A DNA stretch of 64,000 bases from NCBI GenBank assembly GCA_004322275.1, contig SCTA01000007.1:1-64000 (forward strand), given 5' to 3'. The DNA comes from a bacterium. GTDB taxonomy: Bacteria > Desulfobacterota > Deferrisomatia > Deferrisomatales > BM512. Below the pieces are notes generated by a model that worked only from the letters and a program-made list of their open reading frames with translations, had not been told where the DNA came from and did no database searches. Numbering within the stretch: the first letter of the stretch is position 1; every line of letters begins with the position of its first letter. A program made the position numbers and the translations under genes. Shown here in pieces: positions 16 to 45,127 of this stretch.

Positions 16-510
16 GCCACCTTTTGAGTGAGCAAAAGGTGGCCCAAAACTCAGCCCGGACCCGTCGCTCGCGCTTTAAAAAGCGCGACCACTTCGTTCC
101 GGCTGGGCCGTACGGGGCACTCGCTCCGCTAAGACCCCGCGCCGGCCCGACGCCTACACTCGTTGCGCCGCGTACGGGCCCCGAGAAGGACGAAGTGAAG
201 GCTCGTCCAAAAACGAGATTATGAAATGTTTTTGGACTCGAAGGTAGGTTGTCTACACGGATTCTGGAATAGTTGCAAACAAACTACCTTCGAGCAAGTG
301 AGCAACAATTACCTTGCTCATTTGCGAGCCTTCTTTTCGTTCCCCACGCTCTCCGGTGCCCAGCGAGTGAGAGAGCGAGGGTGTTCCGAGCGCGCCATGA
401 GCCCGTGGCGATTTGCGCGCTCGCCGAGCGACGAACGAGCGAGCTTTGGGCACAAAGGGAGCGCGCCTTTCTTCTCCCCCATCTTCTTTTGGCGCTAAAA
501 GAAGATGGGG
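16..510. repeat. Palindrome-rich intergenic DNA (1-724), no credible gene
   Basis: The first 724 bases hold no gene I can support. Three perfect palindromes are visible: a 10-bp stem with 8-nt loop at 16-43, a 9-bp stem with 2-nt spacer at 69-88, and a 14-bp stem with 6-nt loop at 477-510 (arms 477-490 and 497-510). None is followed by a T-run, so they are not typical terminators. The short overlapping reading frames on both strands are Arg/Ser/Pro-rich and lack ribosome binding sites. From about 540 the DNA turns AT-rich and leads into the next gene; an 8-bp inverted repeat lies at 640-647/666-673. The block looks like a dispersed intergenic repeat element, but its family cannot be named from one copy. 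Confidence 0.5.
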
Positions 511-724
511 TCCGGGCGCGGGGCGGATAGCCCCGCAACCATAGAATTACATTAAGGTTTTTATTATTTGGTTGGCGAGTAGCCCTATACACTACTAATA
601 GATTGAGAACAGTAAAAAAATCATATACAATCGCTTTAAAATTACAACATTGTCATGGTAGTTTTTTGTAATTGTTGGCAATATCTTCGCCCTAACAACT
701 TACAAAATTTTATTAGGATGTAAA

Positions 725-2295: not shown

Positions 2296-2799
2296 ATGAG
2301 CGACTTCAAGAATCTGCAAGGCGAAGAGAAACCCTCACAGGTTTTTTCCCCTCCGAAAGGTTACGAGCCCTTCGAGAGCGTGAACTATTGCGGCCTGCGC
2401 GCCGTGAACGTCCGCTATTTCGTTGAGGCCGAGGGGTTTCCGCCCCTCCTCGTCGGAAAGGGAAGAACGCCGCAGGTATGGCTCGCCAAACTGACCGAAG
2501 ACCCGCACGAGCCCTGGCAGTGGGCCGTCTCCGGCAACATCGCGGAAGACCCGGCTTTCAAGGTCAGGACCGACGACGTAAAAAGATCCGTCTCCGTCAA
2601 GAGAAGGGGCATACCCATCCTCACCGCCAGAGTCGGCCCCTTCAACGTCCTCACCGTCGATTACATCGATCTGCGGCCGATAGGCATCTACATCCACGGG
2701 GAAAACGGCGCGCTTTTCGCCTGCGACAACAAGATGTCGAATTGTGCGTATATGAACGTTCAGAACGTTTTCGACATCGGACCGCCACCTAAGAACTGA
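2296..2799 (+). CDS. Hypothetical protein of 167 aa
   Basis: I do not recognise this protein. From the ATG at 2296 it is 167 aa, soluble, with no signal peptide or membrane span. The C-terminal two thirds is well formed and globular in composition: it contains RTPQVWLAKLTEDPHEPW, a GIPILTARVGPFNVLTVDYI stretch with alternating hydrophobics that suggests beta strands, and a short Cys-containing tail (ACDNKMSNCAYMN). The frame is open further upstream to about 2155, with an alternative ATG at 2257, but no start has a convincing Shine-Dalgarno sequence and the upstream codons look non-coding. Base composition matches the GC-rich neighbourhood. A terminator lies downstream at 3086-3111, consistent with a one-gene transcript. 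Confidence 0.55.
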   Translation: MSDFKNLQGEEKPSQVFSPPKGYEPFESVNYCGLRAVNVRYFVEAEGFPPLLVGKGRTPQVWLAKLTEDPHEPWQWAVSGNIAEDPAFKVRTDDVKRSVSVKRRGIPILTARVGPFNVLTVDYIDLRPIGIYIHGENGALFACDNKMSNCAYMNVQNVFDIGPPPKN

Positions 2800-2960
2800 C
2801 CACCCGGCTTCCTATTTCCGACGGCTTCGGCTTTTGCCGCAGAGCATCGTCGCTTCTCGGTCGCGCTCCTCGCCGTATAAACGATACTGTCTTCGTCGCG
2901 CTCGCTACGGGCTCCTTGCCTCGCGCCAAAATCCTGTGCCGTAGAGAAAACAAAGAACAC

Positions 2961-3033
2961 GTCATTCCCGCGCAGGCGTGAATCCAGCGTCTTTTACGGT
3001 CTCGTAGGATGTGTTAGAGCAGCGTAACGCATC
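2961..3033. repeat. Two REP-like dispersed repeats in the 2800-3223 gap
   Basis: The 424-base gap before the next gene has no supportable ORF. It contains two short palindromic units of kinds that are dispersed in many proteobacterial genomes: an ATTCCCGCGCAGGCGTGAAT unit at about 2964-2983, and an imperfect 9-bp palindrome at 3008-3016/3025-3033 (GATGTGTTA against TAACGCATC). The second unit has a close relative at 62348-62368, in the opposite orientation. Both can fold as hairpins. Confidence 0.55.
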
Positions 3034-3085
3034 GATTGAAAGAGCCGTGGTCGGATTGAACAACGTGAAATCCGACAATTCACCC

Positions 3086-3111
3086 AGCCCCGCATCTTGC
3101 GGGGCTTTTTT
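3086..3111 (+). terminator. Rho-independent terminator
   Basis: A perfect 9-bp GC-rich stem (3086-3094 with 3098-3106), a 3-nt loop and a following run of six T define a strong intrinsic terminator on the plus strand. It would end transcription coming from the 2296-2799 gene and insulate the next gene. Confidence 0.85.
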
Positions 3112-7985: not shown

Positions 7986-8654
7986 TTGGAAGACGCCGTA
8001 GACTACGCCGGGCGGGACTGGAATCACGAGTCCACCCGCGACCGCATATTTTCAACCGCAAAGAGACTTTTCTCGAAAAACGGTTTTACCGGAACCTCCA
8101 TACGCGACATAACCGAGGAGGCCGGGGTAAACGTCGCGGCGGTCAATTACCACTTCGGCGGCAAGGAGAACCTCTACCTTGAGATACTCGCCGAAAGGAC
8201 TAAATACTGGCAGGGCGCAAGAATGGAAGCCATTTCCAGGGCGGTTGAGGGGACGGACAACCCCAAAGCCGCTCTTGAAGCCGGTATACGCGCCTTTGTC
8301 CGCTTCAACCTCGCTTCGATCGTCTCCAGCGAGGACTGCGCCGAGGACTGTGCCCTCTTTTTCCGGGAGATATCGTCTCCCGGCCTCGGTTTTGAAATCA
8401 TAATGAGAGAGCTCATAGCGCCCACCCGGAAGGCGATTCACGACCTCCTCGCCGGAGTGATTCCGGGCATAACGCAGGAATCCTCCTTCCTCGTCCTTTC
8501 TTCGATGATCGGGCAGATGACCCATTTCGTGCGCTCCCGCCGGGTCGTGACAAAGGCTCTGGGGCGCGAGTACGACGCCGAACTGATCGACAAAATCTGT
8601 GAACACATCGTCGCCTTCTCGATGGGCGGACTTCGCGCATACGGGGTTGAATGA
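7986..8654 (+). CDS. TetR/AcrR-family repressor, CecR-like
   Basis: The 222-aa product has an N-terminal TetR helix-turn-helix (about 16-62; TRDRIFSTAKRLFSKNGF, then TSIRDITEEAGVNVAAVNYHF) and a C-terminal ligand domain. The ligand domain resembles the DUF1956/CecR type (FFREISSPGLGFEIIMRELI). Members repress adjacent transporter genes and are released by a small-molecule ligand. It starts with TTG after a good GGGAGAG ribosome site and overlaps the next gene by 4 bp (ATGA), so it is the first gene of the efflux operon and probably controls it. In E. coli the relative CecR controls ybhGFSR; here such an exporter lies separately at 30716-35969, so this regulator might act on both. That last point is speculation. 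Confidence 0.85.
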   Translation: MEDAVDYAGRDWNHESTRDRIFSTAKRLFSKNGFTGTSIRDITEEAGVNVAAVNYHFGGKENLYLEILAERTKYWQGARMEAISRAVEGTDNPKAALEAGIRAFVRFNLASIVSSEDCAEDCALFFREISSPGLGFEIIMRELIAPTRKAIHDLLAGVIPGITQESSFLVLSSMIGQMTHFVRSRRVVTKALGREYDAELIDKICEHIVAFSMGGLRAYGVE

Positions 8655-10099
8655 AAATGAAAAGGATATTACCTGGATTTTTGGCGGCGCTCGTGTCCGT
8701 GACTCTGCTGGGCTGCGTAGCCGGACCCGAGAGGGCGAGGGACGTTTCCCCCTCGGCCTCCCAGCCGTGGACCCCTCCCGCAAGGGAGGCGGAAGCAAAG
8801 GGAGTAAAGCCAGCCTACGAGATACCCTCCGAACTCGCCCAAAAGAAGTGGGGGCTAAAAGAGGTTCTGGAGGTCTCTCTGGCGAACAACCCCGCCACCC
8901 GCGCGGCCTGGCACGACGCAAAAGCAGCCGCAGCCAGGGAAGGCATCGCAAGTTCAGCCGAATTGCCGAAGGTGACCGCCTCGGCGGGACTCAATTACAA
9001 GGAGACGAACGACACCGGCAAGGATTTCGTCTCGAAGCAGACCTCGCTCGCCCCTGCGCTCACGCTTTCCTGGCTCCTTCTGGATTTCGGTTCCCGCGAT
9101 GCCTCCGAAGAGAGCGCCAGAAGCGCCCTTCTGGCCGCCAACTGGACGCAGAACAAGGTGATTCAGGACACGGTTCTCCAGACCTCCAGGGCCTACTACC
9201 TCTACCTTTCCACGAAGGCGCTCCTTTCGGCCAGGCAAAAGAACCTCGAGAGGGCCGAGACGATACTTAAGGCCGCCGAGGCCCGCCACGAAGCCGGAGT
9301 CGCCACGAAGGCCGACGTCCTTTCGGCGCGCACCGCGGTCTCCCAGGCGAAGCTCGCTCTCCAGACGGTGGAGGGGCAGATAGCCACCACGCGGGGCGGC
9401 CTCGCCTCGGCGATGGGGCTTCCGGCGAACCTCCCCTTCGACATCGAGGAGCTTCCGGGGAACGTTCCCTTTGAAAGCGTCGCCGGAAACGTAGATTCCC
9501 TCATCGAGGAGGCGCTCGACCGAAGGCCCGATCTCTTCGCGGCGAGGGAACAGGCGAAGGCCGCCTCGGCGCAGGTCGCCAAGGCGAGAGGGGATGGGCT
9601 TCCCACCCTTTCCCTGAACGCCTCCACCGGCGTCACCTGGTACGACGTGAACGAGAGCAAGAAAAACACGGCCGTGGACAGGCGCGAGGATTCCTACTCC
9701 GTCGGCCTTCTCCTTCAATACCCCCTTTTCACCGGCTATTACGACACCTACAACGTCGAGCGGGCGAGGGAGGAGGCAAAGAGCGCGAAGGAGAGGGAGA
9801 GGGGACTGGCGCAGCAGATTATCTTTCAGGTCTACGCGGGTTATTACACTCTCGTCACCGCCGGAGAGAAGGTAAAGACCTCCGACGACCTTCTAACCAG
9901 CGCGCAGGAGGCCGAAGAGGTCGCCCTCGGCCGCTATCAGGAGGGCGTAGGCACGATAGTCGATCTCCTCACGGCGCAGGCGGCCCTCTTTGACGCCCGC
10001 TCGCAGGGGGTGCAGACGAGGTGGGAGTGGTACACCTCTCTAGCCCAACTCGCGCACGACACGGGTCTTCTCGGCCTTCACGGCGAATCAAACCTGTAA
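8651..10099 (+). CDS. Outer-membrane efflux lipoprotein (TolC/OEP family)
   Basis: The 482-aa protein starts with a lipoprotein signal peptide (lipobox LLGC, Cys near residue 22) and carries two outer-membrane efflux protein repeats, with long heptad-rich helices around 160-260 and 370-470 and strand segments between (ASAGLNYKETNDTG; YSVGLLLQYPLFTGYYD). Such proteins form a trimeric channel crossing the outer membrane and periplasm, as the exit duct of tripartite RND pumps. It overlaps the tetR gene by 4 bp and precedes the adaptor gene by 53 bp. The order regulator, outer-membrane factor, adaptor, pump is a self-contained efflux operon. Confidence 0.9.
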   Translation: MKMKRILPGFLAALVSVTLLGCVAGPERARDVSPSASQPWTPPAREAEAKGVKPAYEIPSELAQKKWGLKEVLEVSLANNPATRAAWHDAKAAAAREGIASSAELPKVTASAGLNYKETNDTGKDFVSKQTSLAPALTLSWLLLDFGSRDASEESARSALLAANWTQNKVIQDTVLQTSRAYYLYLSTKALLSARQKNLERAETILKAAEARHEAGVATKADVLSARTAVSQAKLALQTVEGQIATTRGGLASAMGLPANLPFDIEELPGNVPFESVAGNVDSLIEEALDRRPDLFAAREQAKAASAQVAKARGDGLPTLSLNASTGVTWYDVNESKKNTAVDRREDSYSVGLLLQYPLFTGYYDTYNVERAREEAKSAKERERGLAQQIIFQVYAGYYTLVTAGEKVKTSDDLLTSAQEAEEVALGRYQEGVGTIVDLLTAQAALFDARSQGVQTRWEWYTSLAQLAHDTGLLGLHGESNL

Positions 10100-43541: not shown

Positions 43542-44228
43542 TTGATCCCCTGGGAGCTGGTTGACAGCGCGGAGGTTCCCGGCAGGGGCGGAGTATTGAC
43601 GCTTCACAGGCGCGGGGGGGAATTCGTAATCAGGCAAAACGGCGAGGAGCTTATGACGAGCCGCCTTCACGGCTCCGAAGACGCCCTCGCGACTCTGGCG
43701 CTGGAAAAGCTGAGGGGCGTCAAAAATCCCCGCGTTCTTATCGGCGGCCTCGGTCTCGGGTACACCGCCGCGAAAGCCCTTCAAATGCTCGGCCCGGAAG
43801 CTCGCGTAACGGTCGCCGAACTGGTTCCAAAGGTAATAGAGTGGAACCGCACCCTCCTTTCCCACCTTGCCGGCAATCCCCTCAAGGATAAAAGACTCAT
43901 GGCCGTCGAAGCCGACGTTGCGGATATCATCATCGCCAGCGTCAGCGTCTTCGACGCCATCCTGCTTGACGTGGACAATGGCCCCGAGGCTCTTTGCCGG
44001 GACGCCAACAACCGCCTCTACTCCGACGAGGGGCTTTGGGCGGCCCACAGGGCTCTTAGGTCCTCCGGGGTGTTCGCCGTCTGGTCCGCGCACCCCGATG
44101 AACACTTCACCCGCCGCCTTCGCAAAAAAGGCTTTACCGCCGAGGCCGTTTCCTCTCACCCCAGAGGGGCGGGCAGGGGAGGAAGGCACGTTGTCTGGAT
44201 TGCAAAGAAGGCCAAAGAGAAATACTAG
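43542..44228 (+). CDS. Spermidine-synthase-like (SAM-binding) protein
   Basis: Starting at the TTG at 43542, with GGAGG upstream, the product is 228 aa. The Rossmann fold resembles spermidine synthases: NPRVLIGGLGLGYTAAKAL (glycine-rich loop), VTVAELVPKVIEWNR, then FDAILLDVDNGPEALC. The N-terminus carries GGVLTLHRRGGEFVIRQNGEELMTSR, typical of these proteins. The catalytic aspartate region is not the standard polyamine one, so it may be an aminopropyltransferase relative of unknown substrate. It is co-directional with the RRM gene and probably shares its transcript. Its stop TAG at 44226-44228 lies inside the left terminal repeat of the 258-bp element. Confidence 0.75.
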   Translation: MIPWELVDSAEVPGRGGVLTLHRRGGEFVIRQNGEELMTSRLHGSEDALATLALEKLRGVKNPRVLIGGLGLGYTAAKALQMLGPEARVTVAELVPKVIEWNRTLLSHLAGNPLKDKRLMAVEADVADIIIASVSVFDAILLDVDNGPEALCRDANNRLYSDEGLWAAHRALRSSGVFAVWSAHPDEHFTRRLRKKGFTAEAVSSHPRGAGRGGRHVVWIAKKAKEKY

Positions 44229-44482
44229 TGTCCTGTGCGGCTAGTCACTTCCTATATGGACGTCGCTTCATCTCGGTCCGCTTTGTCGTTCGTCGCCCGA
44301 ATACAGGCCAGGTATTCGGGCTCCTCACTTCGCGCGGTTCCCGGCCAGATAATTTTGCGTCCGGGGGGAGACAAATGGGCGAAAAACTGATTTCACATCC
44401 GATTCAAACGCCCTTCGGGTGGGCCGGATCGAGCGAATCGACGCCCATATTGCCGGAAGCCGCTAACCGCACGGGACACTAG
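44225..44482. mobile_element. 258-bp MITE-like element that supplies both flanking stop codons
   Basis: The ends 44225-44244 and 44463-44482 are inverted repeats matching at 18 of 20 positions, each beginning CTAGTGTCC. Both outermost tetramers are CTAG, which reads TAG on either strand. The plus-strand gene ending at 44228 and the minus-strand gene ending at 44479 both use this TAG as their stop. The interior has no credible gene. A 23-bp relative of the left end lies at 31850-31872. No transposase is present, so it is presumably mobilised in trans. Confidence 0.75.
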
Positions 44483-44838
44483 CCGCGTTTTTTTTCCCAG
44501 GCGAGCTTGTGCCCCGCCTCACGCCAGGCCTTTATCCCGCCCAGAAGAGCTTTTGAGTTTTTGAATCCCAGTTTGATGTTTTTTGCCGCCTGACCGGCGG
44601 AGCTCTCCTCGTGCTCTCAGGCGCAGTAGAAGATGAGTTCCGTGTCCAGGGGCAGGGTGGAGCGTTTCTTGCGGAATTCCTGGATGGATATCGAGCCTTC
44701 CAGCCGCAGGATGGCGCAATCTAATGCGTCCTCGTAAGCGCAGATGAGGAGGGCCTTTTTGGCGTTAACCTTCTCGTAGGCTTCCTTCACGGGAATCCTC
44801 TCGATTTCCTCCGCTTTCGGCATTTCTTTTTTCGCCAT
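44479..44838 (-). CDS. Rhodanese-domain protein, probable selenoprotein (in-frame TGA at the catalytic position)
   Basis: The reading frame starts at ATG 44838 (AAGGAG, 8 nt upstream) and ends with TAG at 44479, with one in-frame TGA at 44617-44619, codon 74. Upstream is a rhodanese fold (LEGSISIQEFRKKRSTLP, then TELIFYCA). Downstream the same frame continues it (EHEESSAGQAAKNIKLGF, then ALLGGIKAWREAGH). Related rhodaneses read YCAC followed by P-H/N-E-x-S-S at this point, so the TGA replaces the active-site cysteine itself. A hairpin with a GGUC apical loop begins 21 nt after the TGA, as in bacterial SECIS elements. The 119-aa product would be a cytosolic sulfur or selenium transferase with Sec74 as nucleophile. 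Pseudogenisation by a nonsense change is the alternative, but the intact frame on both sides argues against it. No sel genes are in the window. Confidence 0.8.
44581..44616 (-). promoter_or_regulatory. Predicted bacterial SECIS element
   Basis: On the minus strand, directly after the TGA, a CCGCC/GGCGG stem (44600-44596 with 44590-44586) closes a GGUCA loop. The E. coli fdhF SECIS also presents GGUC in its apical loop, about 18 nt after UGA; here the distance is 21 nt. The hairpin overlaps coding sequence, as is normal in bacteria. It would recruit SelB with Sec-tRNA. Confidence 0.7.
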
Positions 44839-44917
44839 TCCCGGCACTCCTTTTAAAAAGCAGCGTCAAGGCCCGATGGAAAAAGTTTACTACCGGCGGC
44901 GCCAATCCTCAAACCCG

Positions 44918-45127
44918 TCAGCCAAGCCTGACGAAGAAGGCGACGTAGCCGACGAGAAGGAGAAAAAAGTCGATGACGGCGAGCACCCCCAGAATGAAAA
45001 GCCTCTGGTTTTTGGTGAGCGCAAGTTCCCTGCCGCCAAGCTGGAGCACGGCGATTATCGTGAGAACCAGTCCCGAGACTATCAGAAAAGCCACCACGAA
45101 CTTCATCGTCAGCACAAGCTCGCCCAT
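44918..45127 (-). CDS. Small two-helix membrane protein
   Basis: This 69-aa protein has two membrane helices (about 8-28 and 43-63; FVVAFLIVSGLVLTIIAVLQL and LFILGVLAVIDFFLLLVGYVAFF) joined by a short basic loop. A good ribosome site (GAGGAG, 6 nt upstream) precedes the ATG at 45127. I do not recognise it. It lies between the TSUP transporter and the selenoprotein-type rhodanese on the same strand, 34 bp after the transporter's stop, so the three may be co-transcribed. Confidence 0.65.
   Translation of the reverse strand: MGELVLTMKFVVAFLIVSGLVLTIIAVLQLGGRELALTKNQRLFILGVLAVIDFFLLLVGYVAFFVRLG

Follow-up and report, generated by a model that had tools for sequence, protein, structure and literature searches.

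The locus described here raises a simple question: does the TGA that interrupts a rhodanese-like reading frame act as a stop codon, or is it read as selenocysteine (Sec)? The frame is located on the minus strand of the window (the whole stretch of 64,000 nucleotides that was analysed) at positions 44479..44838, with an ATG at 44838 and a TAG stop at 44481-44479. As stated in the initial annotation, it is preceded by a good ribosome-binding site, AGGAG (44847..44851, minus strand), from which the ATG lies 8 nt downstream. The proposed continuity of the frame across a TGA at codon 74 (44617..44619, minus strand) was borne out: this codon is the sole interruption, with no other stops or frameshifts, and read-through yields a single-domain protein of 119 residues (MAKKEMPKAEEIERIPVKEAYEKVNAKKALLICAYEDALDCAILRLEGSISIQEFRKKRSTLPLDTELIFYCAUEHEESSAGQAAKNIKLGFKNSKALLGGIKAWREAGHKLAWEKKRG). 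The product matches the Pfam family Rhodanese (PF00581) along residues 46-107, a span which includes the TGA, and scores 28.5 bits against a cut-off of 22.2. Standard annotation would shorten the gene as anticipated, with the loss of the active site: the table-11 ORF stops at the TGA and encodes 73 aa from the ATG, or 76 aa from an upstream GTG.

All four components of the Sec machinery (selA, selB, selC and selD), for which the initial annotation advised a search of the genome, were found. The tRNA-Sec scored 70.1 bits, above the Rfam cut-off, and was assigned a UCA anticodon by ARAGORN, while the protein components scored 570 bits (SelA), 367 bits (SelB) and 366 bits (SelD). The SelD gene (G000:C25:46122-47045, L017) is a selenoprotein gene too, with an in-frame TGA at codon 11 (SGUGAK). 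A tRNA-Sec is also present in 24 of the 25 genomes that carry the clade described below (by our count), the exception being G354, with a completeness of 82%. This co-occurrence carries little weight as evidence, since 339 of the 395 genomes of the phylum contain a tRNA-Sec.

A search for orthologues in these 395 genomes identified 26 loci at E < 1e-20, each with the TGA. Twenty-five are intact, and the remaining one (L058/L109 of G088) has a frame-shifting deletion just past the UGA and represents either a gene in decay or an error of assembly. None of the 25 intact orthologues (the window's gene counted) has Cys at codon 74, an absence that applies to the genomes of this phylum. The intact sequences form one clade (support 100/99), in which C33, C72 (Cys or Sec) and U74 are invariant; it includes orthologues from the same-order genomes G009 and G010, which keep the TGA at codon 74 at 54% and 49% identity. 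The gene is therefore not the isolated oddity implied by the initial annotation: the clade around it is widespread, apparently Sec-only, and stands beside a known family of CxU rhodanese selenoproteins. Its distribution is patchy: searches of the same-genus genome G004 and of three more genomes of the same family yielded no copy, and the gene is therefore dispensable. A single scan of genome contigs revealed distant non-Sec relatives only, and searches for the gene in plasmid sequences, viral contigs and PHROGs gave no match.

These orthologues bear directly on the possibility that the gene is a pseudogene or an assembly error, with the TGA either serving as a real stop or arising from a miscalled TGC or TGT. 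A single-base origin from either of these Cys codons is conceivable, and one relative, that of G088, is broken. However, 25 intact orthologues share the TGA at this codon, so that a base error here is very unlikely, and the sequence past the TGA continues to evolve as a protein-coding region. In close orthologue pairs, dN in the post-UGA part ranges from 0.01 to 0.09 and dS from 0.34 to 0.91; for the window's gene compared with that of G009, the values are 0.38 and 1.09, respectively, which reflects its large divergence from its nearest relatives. The post-UGA part is thus under protein-level selection and must therefore be translated.

The signal that would direct the recoding was examined next to this coding evidence. 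A hairpin with a GGUC loop, predicted 21 nt past the TGA, was found as CCGCC-GGUCA-GGCGG (44586..44600, minus strand); it has a 5-bp stem from +16 nt, an apical GGUCA loop (44595-44591) that starts after 21 nt, and a folding energy of -9.5 kcal/mol. Its loop resembles that of the E. coli fdhF SECIS. As a single sequence the hairpin is only moderately unusual (p = 0.006 with codon shuffles; z = -1.76 with dinucleotide shuffles and -0.44 with longer flanks). Folding of the whole post-UGA region of one sequence is uninformative, since the UGA codon itself becomes paired although the ribosome would cover it; the hairpin emerges when those bases are excluded.

Comparison of the orthologues gave a much clearer picture. 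The conserved hairpin is the sole structure predicted by RNAalifold for the 25 sequences, and 34 of the 36 TGA-bearing relatives, versus 1 of the 18 without TGA, have a stem of 4 bp or more whose loop falls precisely on +22 to +26. This conservation is far beyond chance. Moreover, the stem shows synonymous compensatory changes: at pair 21-33, where both bases occupy third codon positions, 12 of the 25 sequences have C-G and 10 have U-A. The covariation score of this pair, 0.242, exceeds the shuffled mean (0.118) and was reached in 0 of 500 shuffles (which keep the relatedness of the sequences). The loop-forming Gly is encoded by GGT in 20 of 20 cases, compared with 12% for the remaining Gly codons of these genes, although the formal p-value of this bias is inflated by relatedness.

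The presence of selABCD, the conserved SECIS, the constraint on the post-UGA part and the TGA in 25/25 orthologues provide strong support, at the level of sequence comparison, for the central claim of the initial annotation, namely that this is a genuine Sec-dependent rhodanese gene with an fdhF-like GGUC-loop SECIS. The pseudogene or assembly-error reading, against which the four sel genes also speak, is in practice refuted by the orthologues, the covariation and the constraint past the TGA, and we assign it a negligible probability.

Rhodanese selenoproteins with a CxU motif are already known. They are represented by the NCBIfam family NF041203 (rhodanese_LYCAU, “rhodanese-related (seleno)protein”) and correspond to rhodanese-like form 3 in a review (PMC13188914); form 2 of COG0607 is likewise a CxU rhodanese selenoprotein (PMC9312934). 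Other rhodanese selenoproteins go back to environmental surveys (PMC1088965, PMC2398784). Forms 1, 2 and 4 and TsoB share with the present protein a rhodanese domain containing Sec, but their motifs are UxxS, UxxG or UxxxxU (PMC13188914) and not CxU.

We considered whether the gene is a plain member of NF041203. This family is the best NCBIfam match of the window's protein (48.4 bits, E 6.6e-13) and it matches all 25 members of the clade at E < 0.001. The two groups have in common a single rhodanese domain, the YC-x-U-x-x-E motif (YCAU here) and a SECIS loop located 21 nt past the UGA. On the other hand, the score of the window's protein falls well short of the curated cut-off of 115 bits, and the best E-value in the clade (1.3e-19) suggests that all of its members lie below this value, whereas the positive controls L030 and L059 pass (158.3 and 115.4 bits, respectively; their longer frames open with signal-peptide-like stretches). 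The clade also forms its own well-supported branch, has Cys33 in place of the Asp of the DVR motif, lacks a signal peptide in most of its members, and has no Cys form among the 395 genomes. Simple membership of NF041203 consequently appears unlikely, and we have filed the sequences, on the basis of these comparisons, as a distinct sister clade. They may already be present, unnamed, in published lists of selenoproteins.

Several relatives identified in this study deserve separate mention. A second group of YCAU rhodaneses occurs in genomes of the same order (L030, L032 and L029 of G010, G009 and G011, respectively). Related genes of two genomes of the same family (L028 of G001 and L031 of G002) carry Ala in place of Sec (YCSA), despite the presence of tRNA-Sec in both. 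Locus L060/L110 (G160) has the same SECIS and encodes the C-terminal half of the domain (YCAUPNEATAAGQAA), but no N-terminal rhodanese half can be recognised in frame.

The initial annotation expected homologues to place Cys or Sec at position 74, and both were encountered there. The CxC relatives L061, L065, L070 and L076 have the motif YC-x-C-x-N-E-A at the same positions and represent the Cys counterpart of C-x-U. They differ from the clade in having Asp at position 33, and in three of the four the hairpin at the SECIS position is absent. The exception, L065 (G150, 284-568, plus strand), has a 6-bp hairpin at this position although it lacks the TGA, which may be the trace of a recent Sec-to-Cys change or a product of chance. 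No tRNA-Sec was found in G057, the host of L061.

We turn next to the role of Sec within the active site. An AlphaFold2 model of the protein (pLDDT 89.8) has as its nearest PDB folds rhodanese domains, including GlpE (1gmx) with a TM of 0.70. GlpE is of similar length, but its active-site stretch is two residues shorter, with a lone Cys in place of C-x-U and Asp in place of Cys33. The TGA had been described as replacing the catalytic Cys itself. In its favour, hhalign of the family with GlpE pairs U74 with the catalytic Cys65, a pairing which rests on the placement of a 2-residue gap; against it, a Cys is retained at position 72 (codon 44623..44625, minus strand) and is universal among rhodaneses of the same strand-to-helix length.

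Two readings of the C72-A73-U74 motif can thus be weighed. Sec74 may directly replace the canonical catalytic Cys, with selenium as the nucleophile and Cys72 as the resolving residue. The hhalign result, in which the S-S that follows is set on the S-S of GlpE, agrees with this, as does the fact that position 74 is never Cys in the clade; moreover, Sec is a stronger nucleophile than Cys. Against it, in relatives with the same 18-residue strand-to-helix spacing residue 72 is invariably Cys or Sec, whereas position 74 varies widely (U, C, A, G, E, N, Q or S). The Tyr-Cys at 71-72 also fits the usual strand-end Cys of rhodaneses, and two orthologues carry Sec at position 72 as well. Direct replacement is therefore a possibility that we regard with some doubt. 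Our preferred reading is a C-x-U redox pair: Cys72, probably the ancestral rhodanese nucleophile, would have been joined two positions on by an added, more reactive partner, U74.

The two orthologues with Sec at position 72 are L102 (G181, 2717-3094, minus strand) and L106 (G335, 8566-8928, minus strand). They lie on separate branches, have TGA at both codons 72 and 74 (YUSUP and YUAUP), and are possible U-x-U double selenoproteins, with one SECIS located 27 and 21 nt past the two UGAs. A further residue that may take part in the chemistry is Cys33 (codon 44740..44742, minus strand), which is invariant in the clade (LLVCAY) and takes the place of the DVR-motif Asp found in other rhodaneses.

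The best explanation for the locus, to which we assign a probability of roughly 0.8, is that it encodes a cytosolic single-domain rhodanese selenoprotein, with Sec at position 74 inserted through SelB and the GGUC hairpin, and that the product is most likely a redox rhodanese; its chemistry, substrate and choice of nucleophile are inferred. SelB carrying Sec-tRNA(Sec) would recognise the GGUC-loop hairpin 21 nt past the UGA and promote the insertion of Sec at codon 74, giving a protein with three conserved chalcogen residues (Cys33, Cys72 and Sec74). A persulfide, polysulfide or thiosulfate would then supply sulfane sulfur to Cys72 or Sec74, and attack by the remaining partner of the C-x-U pair would release sulfide or pass the sulfur on. 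The resulting Cys72-Sec74 selenenylsulfide could be reduced by a thiol donor, possibly with the help of Cys33. More speculatively, and at odds that we consider somewhat unfavourable, the clade may be an undescribed Sec-only rhodanese subfamily whose Cys33/Cys72/Sec74 active site serves a selenenylsulfide-forming persulfide reductase or sulfur carrier and not a classical thiosulfate sulfurtransferase, with U-x-U forms in two lineages in which one SECIS would serve two UGAs six bases apart.

The genetic neighbourhood was also considered as a source of information on function. The initial annotation placed a TSUP transporter and a small membrane protein just upstream and suggested a unit for sulfur or selenium handling. 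Both genes are indeed present on the same strand: a small membrane-like protein of 69 aa without a family match (44918..45127, minus strand) and a TauE/SafE sulfite exporter family protein (PF01925; 45162..45929, minus strand), with gaps in this genome of 34 and 79 nt that would be compatible with an operon. The proposed unit itself did not find support. As far as the contigs extend, no homologue of either neighbour was found within ~9 kb of the remaining 24 intact genes, and no neighbour is common to more than three loci. The operon was rejected on the grounds of this lack of conservation and appears improbable; nor was any conserved operon that might hint at the substrate found around these 24 orthologues.

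On its other side, the gene adjoins a MITE-like element (44225-44482) ~260 bp in length, which lies between two convergent genes and whose 28-nt inverted ends are 82% complementary. The TAG stop of the rhodanese gene is supplied by the end of this element, of which the genome contains three more near-full copies (81-83% identity) and many partial matches.

To conclude, most selenoprotein families have many Cys forms, and a clade whose intact members, as far as found, all contain Sec suggests that selenium chemistry is needed for the function of these proteins. The U-x-U members constitute natural test cases for the recoding of two nearby UGA codons by one SECIS. With its compact size (~105 residues), the family may provide a testable model for the role of selenium in sulfane-sulfur chemistry, which is its proposed function.
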